A stretch of DNA of 64,000 nucleotides from Giesbergeria anulus (GTDB lineage: Bacteria; Pseudomonadota; Gammaproteobacteria; Burkholderiales; Burkholderiaceae_C). The notes beneath the pieces were generated by a model, which saw nothing but the letters and a program-made list of their open reading frames with translations, did no database searches and had not been told where the DNA came from. Location: positions 186,001 through 250,000 of the forward strand of contig NZ_FOGD01000002.1 of assembly GCF_900111115.1 (NCBI RefSeq), given 5' to 3'. Every line of letters starts with the position of its first letter. The stretch's first letter is position 1. Position numbers and translations under genes: made by a program. Shown here one piece after another: positions 9,805 to 12,653 of this stretch.

Positions 9805-10485
9805 ATGTTTTTTGTCTTTGGCCCTTCAGGGCAGATGTACCGGGGCGGCCCAGAGAACTTGGCCAAAATCTCTCCCGTGCGCGCCGTCACCCGCCCACAG
9901 GCCCTGCGCATCCGTGCTGCCGGTTTGTATGGCGAAGAGGCAGCACCGCCCATGCCACTGCCTGCACCCAGCGCTACGGCTGCCCCGCGCACGTTGCTGG
10001 CCCAAGATGCAGTGTCGGCCTATGCCAACAGCAGTGGGCTAGCACCTGAGCGACAACCGCTTACGCTGGTGCGCGACGTCATGACACGCGGTGCCCTGAC
10101 GGTGCCGATGTCAGCGCGGGCACACGATGCTTGGGAGATGTTTGCCCGCTATCAAGTGGGGCAAGCGCCAGTGCTCAATGGGGCCGGGCGTGTGGTGGGC
10201 TTGCTGCTGCGCACGGATATGGGGCCGCCAGAGTTGTTGCCCGCCCCCGGCAATGTGGGCGAACAGCTAGAGCATGCCCGCCGCCCGGTGTCGGAGGTGA
10301 TGGTCAGCCCAATACCTACGGTGTCAGAAGATACGGAGTTGCGCCGCTTGGCGGGCGTACTGCTAGAAACAGGCTTGCCCGGCCTGCCCGTAACAGACGA
10401 CAGCGGCGAGCTGAAAGGCTTTGTCTCACGCACCGACCTGCTGCGCGCCATCGCCGCCAATCCGCCACTGGATTTGTGGACTTAG
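9805..10485 (+). CDS. CBS-domain protein
   Basis: 226 residues. The N-terminal ~75 residues (MFFVFGPSGQMYRGGPENL) are family-specific and proline/alanine-rich in the linker. Two CBS motifs follow: one around VRDVMTRGALTVPMSARAHD and one around VSEVMVSPIPTVSEDTELRR, each ending with a hydrophobic strand and an Asp (LLLRTDMG; FVSRTDLLRAI). Paired CBS motifs bind adenine nucleotides and act as energy or ligand sensors. ATG 9805 is preceded by AGGAGA at good spacing. No enzyme domain is fused, so the partner is unknown. This is the last G+C-rich gene before the AT-rich retron island. Confidence 0.85.
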   Translation: MFFVFGPSGQMYRGGPENLAKISPVRAVTRPQALRIRAAGLYGEEAAPPMPLPAPSATAAPRTLLAQDAVSAYANSSGLAPERQPLTLVRDVMTRGALTVPMSARAHDAWEMFARYQVGQAPVLNGAGRVVGLLLRTDMGPPELLPAPGNVGEQLEHARRPVSEVMVSPIPTVSEDTELRRLAGVLLETGLPGLPVTDDSGELKGFVSRTDLLRAIAANPPLDLWT

Positions 10486-10549
10486 GCACCCCCTTAAATA
10501 TGCAAAATATTGATTGCAATAGTAAAATCAATAGAAAAAAATCTATAAA

Positions 10550-10577
10550 AAGATGTTATTTAATACACCAACATCTT
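10550..10577. repeat. 8-bp dyad and paired TCTATAAAA boxes before the retron
   Basis: AAGATGTT (10550-10557) and AACATCTT (10570-10577) form a perfect 8-bp inverted repeat around a 12-nt loop. The sequence TCTATAAAA occurs on both sides (10542-10550 and 10577-10585). The second copy contains a TATAAA box that could serve as the -10 element for the retron RNA, placing the dyad where a -35 element or operator would sit. No T-tract follows, so it is not a convincing terminator for the CBS gene. Confidence 0.45.
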
Positions 10578-10578
10578 C

Positions 10579-10584
10579 TATAAA
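10579..10584 (+). promoter_or_regulatory. Candidate -10 box of the retron transcript
   Basis: TATAAA at 10579-10584 lies about 30 nt upstream of the structured RNA, so transcription would begin near 10592. No good -35 element is visible at the expected spacing (TTATTT at 10556-10561 is the closest), which weakens the call. The region may depend on a factor binding the adjoining dyad. Confidence 0.3.
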
Positions 10585-10612
10585 ATGGCGAAACCATCAG
10601 GCGAAAGCCTGA

Positions 10613-10902
10613 CTTATCGCTCTTTGAAAATTAGCTGACCTAGAAAAACAAGTCTGAGTCTTTTTCGAAAGAAAAAGACGCTTGCGTAAAACAATTTTGC
10701 GTAGGCTCGACCGGCATGCCCCTAGGAGTCGACGCCCGTAACACGGGAAGAAGACTAGAAAGGACGACGGCACACCATTGTTGAACGAATATACAGACGT
10801 CTAAAGCCCTGACAGGTTGTTATTGTTTTCTCTACCTCCTTAGTTGAACGGGGTCATGCGCCGCATGACTCAAAACATCGGAGGTAATTTCATATGCGTA
10901 AG
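10613..10902 (+). ncRNA. Candidate retron msr-msd RNA
   Basis: A stem-loop-rich non-coding stretch directly before the retron genes. Candidate a1: CTTATCGC and TGAAAATTA (10613-10633). Candidate a2: TAATTTCA and GCGTAAG (10885-10902). They pair over 15 bp with two single-base bulges and one small internal loop. The base after a1 is G10634 in the context TTAGC, as at the branching G of retron-Ec86. The msr part would hold a 9-bp GAAA hairpin (10658-10679) and a 12-bp stem with three G-U pairs (10680-10706). Further stems: CCCGT/ACGGG (10735-10747) and GTCATGC/GCATGAC (10853-10869). An alternative long msd fold pairs 10712-10728 with 10836-10863. A 6-bp GAAA hairpin (10597-10612) precedes a1. 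Ends and fold are inferred by eye. Confidence 0.6.
10834..10885 (+). promoter_or_regulatory. Ribosome-binding site of the 67-residue gene and its internal complement
   Basis: GGAGGT (10880-10885) is a perfect Shine-Dalgarno sequence nine bases before ATG 10894. ACCTCC at 10834-10839 is its exact complement, within ACCTCCTTA, which matches the 3' end of 16S rRNA. Pairing of the two would hide the site. The candidate a2 strand also overlaps the spacer and start codon. Regulation is inferred from complementarity only. Confidence 0.5.
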
Positions 10903-11097
10903 CAGAAAAAATTGGGTCGGCGTAATTGTGGTGCATGCACCACTAAAAAGATTGGAGCCTCTCAGCTTGAAGGGTTAGGTTCCAAATTTGATAAGGCCTG
11001 TCGGGGTCTTGGAACTGTTTATCACGCATACAACGCGTACCGTGGTTTTGAAGTTCTTAAATCTTTGATTGATTATGTGATAAATATGCTCAATTGA
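10894..11097 (+). CDS. 67-residue protein of the retron operon, unknown function
   Basis: Not recognised. The N-terminal third is very basic (MRKQKKLGRRNCGACTTKK) and has one CxxC (Cys12, Cys15); a third Cys is at 36, so a complete zinc site is not evident in a monomer. The C-terminal half is more hydrophobic, with a likely amphipathic or membrane-interacting helix (GFEVLKSLIDYVINMLN). It has an excellent ribosome-binding site and ends 6 bp before the reverse transcriptase start, so translation is probably coupled. Codon use is AT-rich like the reverse transcriptase and unlike the flanking genes. As the first gene after the candidate RNA it could be an effector or accessory factor; this is inference from position only. 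Confidence 0.65.
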   Translation: MRKQKKLGRRNCGACTTKKIGASQLEGLGSKFDKACRGLGTVYHAYNAYRGFEVLKSLIDYVINMLN

Positions 11098-11103
11098 AGT
11101 TAG

Positions 11104-12288
11104 ATGTCTGTTATTTTTAATTCATGTATGAAGGCTAAATTCTTAGGGACTCCTATTGCTCGCGTGGAGTCGCTTGCTCGTACTCTCGGAGTATCTATCC
11201 ATGATTTACGAACAATCGCTGGAGCAGCATCATCTAGATACAATGACTTTCAAATAGATAAAAAAGATGGTGGAAAACGTGATGTTTCATCGCCACGAAT
11301 AGAGCTAAAATTAATTCAAAAGCGAATTAATAGAGAAATTTTTGAGAAAGTATATTTCCCAAGCTATTTAAATGGCGGGATCAAGGGAAGGGATTACGTA
11401 AAAAATGCATATGAGCATGGTAATTCTGAAACAATAATATCCCTTGACATAGAAAACTTTTACCCAAAAGTATCAAGAATAAGTATACTAAATATTTTTA
11501 AGAACTTCCTAAAACAACCAGAAGAAATTGCAGAAATACTTACAAATCTTTGCACAAAAGACAACAAACTACCTCAAGGTGGATGTGCAAGCTCATATTT
11601 AGCCAACCTTGTATTCTTTGACATCGAGCCAAGATTAGTCAGTCGCCTTCAAGAAGAAGGATTTACATACACAAGATTAATTGATGATATAACAATATAT
11701 TCAAAAAATCTTATTAGCAAGAAAAAGATTTCCGATTTAATAGAAAGCATCACAAAAATGCTTAAATCTCGTGGTTTCAAATTAAAACAAAAGAAAACTC
11801 GATGTACATCTGCATCGAATCCTGAAAAATTAATGGAAGTCACCGGTCTTTGGTTAAATCGAGGTGCACCAAGAGTTCGACGAAATGAACGTGCAGAAAT
11901 TCGAAAAGAGGTTAGAGAATGCTTGATTTCTGCCGAACTCAACAAAACCGACAAAGAATACCACGACCTCCATCAAAAAGTATCAGGTAGAGTTGCCAAG
12001 CTTTCTCAACTCAACCATTGTCAAGCAGAACGTTTTCGCAAAGAATTACGAGAAATACTTCCTATTTACAGTGATGCAGATATTCGTAAAACACGCCGCC
12101 TTGTTGCGAAAATCATAAAAACCCCAAGAACTACTCGCTCTAGTTTAGGATATATTAAAAAATATCATCAGATAGTTTACAGAATAAACATTCTAGCGAG
12201 AAGCAACAAATCAATCGCTAGAAGTCTAAGAGAAAAAATGAAAATTTGCGCGCCAACAATTACAAAAGAAAATTCAATTCATGGCTAA
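11104..12288 (+). CDS. Retron-type reverse transcriptase
   Basis: 394 residues. Domain order fits a retron reverse transcriptase: fingers/palm motifs, then a C-terminal thumb/X region without maturase or endonuclease. The retron hallmarks are present: NAYEH (101-105) fits NAxxH and EVTGLW (245-250) contains VTG. Motif A is SLDIENFYPKV with Asp115; motif B is LPQGGCASSYLANLVF (156-171). The catalytic box reads RLIDD (191-195), so the aromatic residue of the usual YxDD is Leu, while both Asp residues remain. It should copy part of the upstream RNA into branched msDNA. Starts 6 bp after the small gene with only a weak ribosome-binding site; ATG 11128 is a possible alternative start. It overlaps the next gene by 8 bp. 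Strongly AT-rich, suggesting horizontal transfer. Confidence 0.9.
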   Translation: MSVIFNSCMKAKFLGTPIARVESLARTLGVSIHDLRTIAGAASSRYNDFQIDKKDGGKRDVSSPRIELKLIQKRINREIFEKVYFPSYLNGGIKGRDYVKNAYEHGNSETIISLDIENFYPKVSRISILNIFKNFLKQPEEIAEILTNLCTKDNKLPQGGCASSYLANLVFFDIEPRLVSRLQEEGFTYTRLIDDITIYSKNLISKKKISDLIESITKMLKSRGFKLKQKKTRCTSASNPEKLMEVTGLWLNRGAPRVRRNERAEIRKEVRECLISAELNKTDKEYHDLHQKVSGRVAKLSQLNHCQAERFRKELREILPIYSDADIRKTRRLVAKIIKTPRTTRSSLGYIKKYHQIVYRINILARSNKSIARSLREKMKICAPTITKENSIHG

Positions 12289-12514
12289 AGATGAAGATAT
12301 TCTTAATGAAGGCCAGAGGATTTTTGGTGGAGTCAATTATTACTCTCCCATAAAAGGTTACGGATTTATCCGCAGAGAAAAAGGTCGTGATGTATTTTTC
12401 TTATGGACTGACGCAGCCAGCGAATCAATTCTAATTGAAGGATCAAAAGTATCCTTCGTACTAACAATCTCATCAAAAGGCCCACGAGCTAACGAGATAA
12501 AAAGAGAAGGCTAA
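12281..12514 (+). CDS. Cold-shock-domain protein of the retron operon
   Basis: 77 residues, close to a single CspA-type OB fold. RNP1 reads KGYGFIRRE (25-33; usual KGFGFI) and RNP2 reads DVFFLW (37-42; usual DVFVHF). It is diverged: an extra acidic N-terminus (MAKDEDILNEGQ) precedes the fold and the conserved His of RNP2 is lost. Its start lies inside the reverse transcriptase gene (8-bp overlap), so the two are translationally coupled and probably work together. Cold-shock folds bind single-stranded RNA or DNA, so binding the retron RNA or msDNA is a reasonable but untested idea. Base composition matches the island rather than the chromosome. Confidence 0.8.
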   Translation: MAKDEDILNEGQRIFGGVNYYSPIKGYGFIRREKGRDVFFLWTDAASESILIEGSKVSFVLTISSKGPRANEIKREG

Positions 12515-12571
12515 CGCCTCTTAAATCCTATAAACAATTAAGTAGTCCAGCATCACTGTGATTTATAAATC

Positions 12572-12590
12572 TATTCTAAGAATTAGAATA
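12572..12590. repeat. Perfect 8-bp inverted repeat downstream of the retron operon
   Basis: TATTCTAA (12572-12579) and TTAGAATA (12583-12590) enclose three bases. It lies between the convergent retron operon and ispH. All pairs but two are A-T and no T-run follows on the plus strand, so it is a poor terminator; a palindromic GATTTATAAATC lies just before it. The AT-rich intergenic DNA ends near 12650. Confidence 0.5.
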
Positions 12591-12653
12591 CGCAAAAACC
12601 ACATCAGTTACGCAGGATTACTTAACATGATCTATGGAAATACTTCTTAAGCG

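Follow-up and report, generated by a model that had tools for sequence, protein, structure and literature searches.

A retron lies in the 64,000-nucleotide stretch of the Giesbergeria anulus genome analysed here (the window; contig NZ_FOGD01000002.1), within an AT-rich insert between the gene of a CBS-domain protein and ispH (10486-12653). Three genes follow each other on the forward strand: a 204-nt gene for a 67-residue protein with a basic N-terminus and a predicted C-terminal helix (10894-11097), the gene of a retron reverse transcriptase (RT) of 394 residues (11104-12288), and a gene for a 77-residue cold-shock domain (CSD) protein (12281-12514). The small open reading frame (ORF) ends 6 nt before the RT gene, and the RT and CSD genes overlap by 8 nt. 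The G+C content, determined in 300-nt intervals, was 30-46% across 10350-12599 and 55-66% on either side. A first-pass annotation had described a tight series of structured RNA, small gene, RT and CSD in AT-rich DNA between G+C-rich regions, and both the spacing and the base composition bear this out. What appears to be new is a small gene within the retron RNA, present in every type V locus examined, together with a boxA-type leader.

The RT and the CSD place the locus in retron type V, the Se72/Sen1 family. Among the PADLOC models, RT_V matched the window RT best (370 bits, 2.8e-111), followed by RT_IV (267 bits) and RT_VI (242 bits). A tree of 93 RTs has a branch (support 98/85) that sets the window RT and 46 other type V RTs apart; the sister of the window RT was a Pelomonas RT, with Burkholderia and Ralstonia RTs next. 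The window CSD matched PADLOC CSD_V at 3.3e-27 and the NCBIfam model NF038236 ("retron Se72 effector") with 90.8 bits against a cut-off of 82, and a Pfam search of it revealed no domain beyond cold-shock. NAxxH, xxDD and VTG are signatures of retron RTs, and the usual xxDD form is Y-A-D-D. The window RT has NAYEH and VTG, as the first-pass annotation had stated, and L-I-D-D instead of Y-A-D-D; LLDD/LIDD was the commonest form in the type V clade. Among 47 type V RTs, NAxxH occurred in 37, N[AS]xxH in 46 and VTG in 41. The CSDs were well conserved: in 47 aligned sequences GFIxR was invariant, the K and the G preceding it in KGxGFIxR were kept in 45 and 46, and each position of DVFF in 39-47. 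The earlier call of a retron is therefore upheld. The accompanying view, that this was a candidate for an undescribed system of a type that could not be placed, is not: both proteins match type V models, so that by RT and CSD the locus is no undescribed system. Two other assignments were tried and rejected, type IV since no ORF for an effector with two transmembrane segments (2TM) lies within 10486-12653, and type VI since no helix-turn-helix (HTH) gene is among the three window genes; the RT tree places the window in type V.

For comparison, loci were collected by RT alone from plasmids (6 regions), whole genomes, genome contigs (101 loci, 80 kept) and viral contigs (10 loci). A single-sequence scan of the genome contigs gave no matches; an alignment-based scan found the loci. 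RT score and CSD together defined 51 loci of type V with a readable upstream region, window included, after removal of two copies of the window (L001, L002) and of L101, which is cut at its start and is nevertheless among the 47 aligned CSDs. Tests on 47 loci omit four truncated loci or near-copies (L009, L019, L090, L100), and a k-mer count on 46 loci also omits L007; all five remain in the 51-locus counts of boxA and of the small ORF. With our own CSD profile, a CSD was detected after the RT in 48 of the 51 loci. L009 and L090 are truncated at the RT, and L049 has no recognisable CSD. In L009, on the Escherichia coli plasmid NZ_AP027425.1, the RT is interrupted beside an ISEcp1-blaCMY-2 insertion and the CSD lies beyond the insert. 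L049 (Cupriavidus necator UYPR2.512) has intact RT motifs and keeps the small ORF; its CSD has possibly decayed.

At the same place upstream of the RT, an ATG-initiated ORF of 59-85 residues was present in all 51 type V loci, with its stop 75 nt before to 60 nt after the annotated RT start. The ORF chooser accepted 45-110 codons with a stop in this same range, and it favoured ATG and a good ribosome site; a separate ORF listing was made without this preference. Because of it, the number of small ORFs with a ribosome-site match of at least 4 bases (47 of 51) is biased upward. The first-pass annotation had suggested a neighbour survey for a conserved set of RNA, small gene, RT and CSD, and the small gene was indeed found in 51 of 51 loci and the leader RNA, described below, in 19 of 21 held-out ones. 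The frame of the small ORF was open over 55 codons in all 47 loci tested, the two remaining forward frames in none of them, and the reverse frames in 5, 0 and 5. Eighteen pairs of small genes were tested for the ratio of nonsynonymous to synonymous substitution (dN/dS), of which 16 were informative, and 12 of these gave values of 0.21-0.72. The region could in principle consist of msr/msd RNA only, with the open frame as a by-product, and conserved hairpins within the frame, to which we return below, would suit such a view. Given an ATG frame that is open in 51 of 51 loci, no other forward frame open in any of 47, and dN/dS below 1 in most pairs, we regard it as highly improbable.

The amino-acid sequence of the small protein is extremely divergent between type V loci. 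The window protein had no credible family match in Pfam, PADLOC, NCBIfam or PHROGs, nor had the small proteins of relatives, seven searched against Pfam and PADLOC and four against PHROGs; the best E in these searches was 0.032, below the curated cut-off. For the window protein, tblastn against plasmids gave chance matches only. The 183-nt ORF of L007 was found in 28 of 5,426 RefSeq E. coli genomes; in 25 listed records no feature is annotated there, the other three genomes being absent from the listing.

Certain properties of the protein recur all the same. In 46 of 47 loci, the best 19-residue Kyte-Doolittle segment was centred in the C-terminal half; its hydrophobicity was at least 1.2 in 42 loci and at least 1.6 in 23. 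The N-terminal half was net positive in 36 of 47. The window protein and those of its three nearest relatives were weakly hydrophobic (0.66-1.27), with a charge of +7 or +8 in the N-terminal half and an amphipathic C-terminal part (p 0.01 for the window, 0.01-0.04 for the four). Thus, of the "basic/hydrophobic" character that the first-pass annotation had seen in the window protein, the basic part is confirmed, whereas the hydrophobicity is weak (0.66, shuffle p 0.48). A single transmembrane-type hydrophobic segment, as found in the toxins of type I toxin-antitoxin systems, is plausible for many relatives, but not for the window protein with its value of 0.66. AlphaFold2 predicted a disordered N-terminus and one helix (residues 20-66) for the window protein, at low confidence (mean pLDDT, the predicted local distance difference test, 60), and a Foldseek comparison of this model with viral structures returned no match. 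Since the C-terminal character recurs in divergent loci and dN/dS is mostly 0.21-0.72, the peptide sequence of the small gene appears to be selected.

The DNA around the small gene encodes a structured RNA. The stretch 10541-10893 folded with -112.4 kcal/mol; its z was -5.9, and none of 100 shuffles did as well. The structured RNA of the first-pass annotation is therefore real as a strong fold, but its limits had to be redrawn: the RNA that is conserved in the family starts near 10597, not at 10542, and runs through the small gene to the RT start codon. Many type V loci have a 5' arm, some 280-390 nt ahead of the RT, that is complementary to a 3' arm near the RT start, with letters that vary by group. 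Across 47 loci, pairing between own arms scored a mean of 25.9, while swapped partners gave a permutation mean of 20.0 and a maximum of 22.45 (0 of 20,000 permutations as high). The own 3' region was among the best five of 47 partners in 30 loci, window included. The candidate a1/a2 arms of the window are ACAGACGTCTAA (10793-10804) and TTAGATGTCTGT (11100-11111, covering the RT start codon), both on the forward strand; their support is at the level of the family, and they are not significant in the window alone. By these predicted pairings, the small gene sits inside the retron RNA, enclosed by complementary arms.

Between the arms, the Shine-Dalgarno-like site of the small gene, GGAGGTA (10880-10886), is paired with TACCTCC (10833-10839) in both the minimum free energy and the centroid fold, so that the ribosome-binding site would be hidden. 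This pairing was kept with changed letters in L016 and L017, likewise in L015 by eye; over 47 loci the effect was modest (own 17.56 versus a maximum of 17.24 in 20,000 permutations). Two hairpins lie inside the small gene itself. One, formed by TTGGAGCCT and AGGTTCCAA (10952-10985), was equalled by 1 of 60 synonymous shuffles; the other, GTGGTGCATGCACCAC (10928-10943), was seen in the fold and has counterparts with other letters that pair in L015, L016 and L017. In the family, the best hairpin in ORF nucleotides 21-110 averaged 16.5, versus 15.2 as the highest of 60 synonymous codon-shuffle sets. In several small genes (for example L024, L034, L043, L048, L007 and L040) the hairpin loops keep TAGAGATAG or TGGAGAC while the stems vary, which suggests a bound RNA motif.

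Such an arrangement brings to mind a regulatory leader peptide, by which ribosomes would open or close the RNA and balance noncoding RNA against RT expression, the peptide itself being functionless. The ORF is enclosed by paired arms, pairing also covers its ribosome site, the 3' arm lies over the RT start, and the protein sequence is extremely divergent, all as expected of a leader peptide. A functionless peptide would, however, sit poorly with a hydrophobic or amphipathic C-terminus that recurs across divergent loci and with dN/dS of 0.21-0.72 in 12 of 16 informative pairs. We therefore consider this explanation distinctly unlikely.

The leader upstream of the small gene has a common order. 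From 5' to 3', a first hairpin and a boxA-like motif are followed by a second hairpin, which ends just before GACC[CG]G, and by two short direct repeats, one on each side of the 5' arm. A covariance model (R1) built from 25 other type V loci, with the window excluded, matched the window at 10600-10720 on the forward strand (38.3 bits, E 6.6e-8), its sole match in the 64 kb. Among 21 held-out type V loci, two of which (L096 and L099) are close kin of model rows, R1 matched 19 with E no higher than 1, and for 15 of these E did not exceed 0.014; it matched 2 of 51 non-V loci, at best with E 0.051. An Rfam search of the region gave no match.

In the window, the first hairpin (TCAGGCGAAAGCCTGA, 10597-10612) precedes the boxA-like motif CGCTCTTTGAAAA (10618-10630). 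Of the 51 type V loci, 31 had the form G[CT]TCTTT[AGT]A (1.0 expected), as did 2 of 50 non-V loci (0.9 expected). In each of 30 motif-bearing loci a 5-bp hairpin stood before it (14.1 expected), and the stems differed. In the untranslated leader of many type V loci, the window among them, a hairpin is followed by a boxA-like motif. Its identification with boxA rests on the boxA of E. coli ribosomal RNA (rRNA) and on a published CRISPR sequence. The leaders of rRNA operons and CRISPR arrays likewise show a hairpin and then a GCTCTTTAA/GTTCTTTRAA motif. The likeness of the type V leaders to them lies in the motif only, and the host's own rRNA leader reads GAACTTTAAAA. That CRISPR sequence, the boxA of Legionella, reads GTTCTTTAAAA (PMC7862264). 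In one open literature library, a search for boxA together with retrons returned nothing relevant. Outside type V, the retron locus L012 has an exact boxA-like GCTCTTTAACA about 609 nt before its RT, and a small hydrophobic ORF upstream.

The second hairpin of the window, with an 11-bp stem (10680-10706), stands directly before GACCGGC (10709-10715), in the same register as in the family. Of 39 loci with GACC[CG]G in place, 32 had a hairpin in this fixed register before it when the loop was limited to 16 nt (4.2 expected); a single position showed as many as five types of base pair. With loops of up to 24 nt the count rose to 36 of 39 (6.4 expected) and included the window, which is missed at the stricter limit because the outer five pairs of its 11-bp stem have 17 nt between them. 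GACC[CG]G itself occurred in 38 of 46 loci, nearly always 169-212 nt before the small gene. The repeat 9-mers TTGTCTGGC and TGGTCTGGC occurred in 27 and 25 of 46 loci, and no 9-mer was found in more than 4 loci in any of 20 shuffles; the repeats are 59-68 nt apart in 27 loci. In the window their places are taken by the two copies of direct repeat D3, CCATTGTTGAACG (10775-10787) and CCTTAGTTGAACG (10838-10850), which are a diverged form of the family 9-mers, with homology judged by eye.

The genomic setting of the window retron was compared within the genus. The flanking CBS gene is present in 15 other same-genus genomes. Nine of these loci were read, and in eight of them CBS and ispH stand tail to tail at a distance of about 20-210 nt, which leaves no space for a retron; the stretch of the ninth shows no ispH. 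The retron is thus absent from eight of nine same-genus loci, and is therefore a patchy, presumably horizontally acquired insertion. The window RT was the only RVT_1 match in the whole genome. At E up to 1e-60, the PADLOC model PDLC02951 matched 3 of 399 genomes of the host's order and 6 of 369 of its class, the window's genome being in both; type V retrons are rare there. Among the seven other PDLC02951 loci from these scans, a CSD was seen only in L003; the sequence of L012 stops 16 nt after its RT, so that the presence of a CSD there is not judgeable. A scan for sigma-70 promoters yielded 4 sites (5.7 in shuffles), none of them upstream of the leader on the forward strand. Between the CBS gene and the leader, outside the match to the family RNA model, a AAGATGTT/AACATCTT hairpin (10550-10577) may be the terminator of the upstream gene.

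Type V itself, by RT and CSD, is already known from PADLOC, NCBIfam and Se72. In our comparison Se72 is represented by three relatives from enterobacterial plasmids (L006, L007 and L119, the CSDs of L007 and L119 being annotated as Se72-family effector). Like the window, these have an RT of the same clade, a CSD directly downstream and the leader RNA, and L006 and L007 also share the flanking arms and have a 60-residue ORF at the same place; the RTs of L006 and L007 are 38-39% identical to the window RT. The window locus differs in lying among chromosomal housekeeping genes, in a small protein that is more basic and less hydrophobic, and in the direct-repeat motif, which is TTGAAC in the window and TCTGGC in the Se72 relatives. 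L005, L006, L007 and L119 are carried by enterobacterial plasmids of 4-6 kb, three of the four typed as mobilizable. For Se72, a review of retrons (PMC6868368) describes, as a possible alternative msr, an ORF whose hairpin lies between repeats, with no 2'-5' linkage observed and a double-stranded product. This description agrees with the architecture found across type V. The 72-nt product of Se72 might span the two direct repeats.

Type IV retrons (Ec48-like) are the closest other RT type by model. Eight loci that we take to be type IV from their layout all have a hydrophobic ORF of 220-244 residues after the RT, no CSD and no confident match to the leader. Several type VI-like loci resemble type V in having an upstream ORF with a hydrophobic C-terminus, but they differ by an HTH gene instead of the CSD where seen, by a shorter RT and by a position outside the type V branch. 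In L061, L063, L084 and L088 (type VI-like or unassigned) the upstream ORF comprises 81-181 residues as called and has a hydrophobic stretch near its C-terminus; in L063 and L088 an HTH gene adjoins the RT.

Which protein of a type V retron is the effector? The first-pass annotation had deduced that it should be either the 67-residue or the cold-shock protein, which is a reasonable deduction. An ordinary tripartite type V retron would use the CSD protein as toxic effector, for example by binding cellular RNA or single-stranded DNA, and the small protein would be an accessory that helps the RT or the assembly of multicopy single-stranded DNA (msDNA), or that localises the complex. NCBIfam names the CSD as the Se72 effector, which equally counts against a small-protein effector, and PADLOC lists it as type V partner. 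The CSD follows the RT in 48 of 51 loci with well kept motifs (GFIxR 47 of 47, K 45, DVFF 39-47), and the basic N-terminus of the small protein would fit RNA binding. Yet CSDs are small RNA chaperones that are not known to carry catalytic residues, L049 has an RT and a small gene with no recognisable CSD, and the C-terminal hydrophobic segment of many small proteins points to membranes. On balance, we find this tripartite organisation, accessory role of the small protein included, possible but rather doubtful.

We favour a four-part type V retron in which the small protein would be a membrane-acting effector, a reading to which we assign a probability of about 50%. The second-best RT model is RT_IV, and Se72 is reported to be triggered by phage RecBCD inhibitors, like Ec48 (PMC12409349; PMC10732053). 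Several observations weigh against a membrane-acting small protein and its RNA. Small proteins reached a hydrophobicity of 1.6 in only 23 of 47 loci and surpassed their own shuffles (p <0.05) in only 15. The window protein is not clearly a membrane protein (best 19-mer 0.66, shuffle p 0.48), nor does that of L015 stand out (0.78, shuffle p 0.18). In 4 of the 16 informative pairs, dN/dS was 0.92-1.12. The window arms taken alone are unremarkable, being equalled in 6 of 60 shuffles. Arms are poorer in 17 of the 47 loci (for example L022, L028, L030 and L039), where the own 3' region was outside the best five. The exact boxA is absent from 20 of 51 type V loci. Finally, over 369 genomes R1 matched the window's genome and also two unrelated coding stretches (31.2 and 28.1 bits) with no RT nearby, so that R1 scores near 30 bits are unsafe alone.

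If the small protein is the effector, the parts could work together as follows. The boxA would let RNA polymerase pass the structured RNA, through Nus-dependent readthrough of the leader. The type V RT would bind the retron RNA and make msDNA, while the small gene would have its ribosome-binding site hidden by the RNA fold. The CSD protein would bind RNA or msDNA via its KGxGFIxR and DVFF motifs. Disturbance of RecBCD by a phage, the reported trigger of Se72, would change the retron complex. The small basic helical protein would then act on the membrane, and growth would stop. A parallel would be Ec48, a RecBCD-guarding retron of type IV whose 2TM effector is believed to act in this way.

A bolder version, which we think rather unlikely, makes the retron RNA both the template of reverse transcription and the messenger of the toxin. 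Binding and copying by the RT would silence the small membrane-acting protein; when a phage disturbs the RT-msDNA complex, the messenger would be freed, the ribosome site would open and the toxin would be made. If true, such a retron would amount to a toxin-antitoxin system in which reverse transcription itself plays the antitoxin, aided by an rRNA-style antitermination leader.

In the open literature searched, the small gene and the boxA leader were undescribed beyond the remark on Se72; an earlier account in the main classification or Se72 papers is possible, and we claim no priority. The small gene inside the RNA offers a concrete, readily testable effector candidate for type V retrons. If the four-part organisation is true, type V goes from three parts to four, and gene calls, cloned test constructs and defence-system databases are incomplete for this type. 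The boxA-type leader would, moreover, link the expression of retron RNA with the Nus machinery that serves antitermination in rRNA operons and CRISPR arrays.

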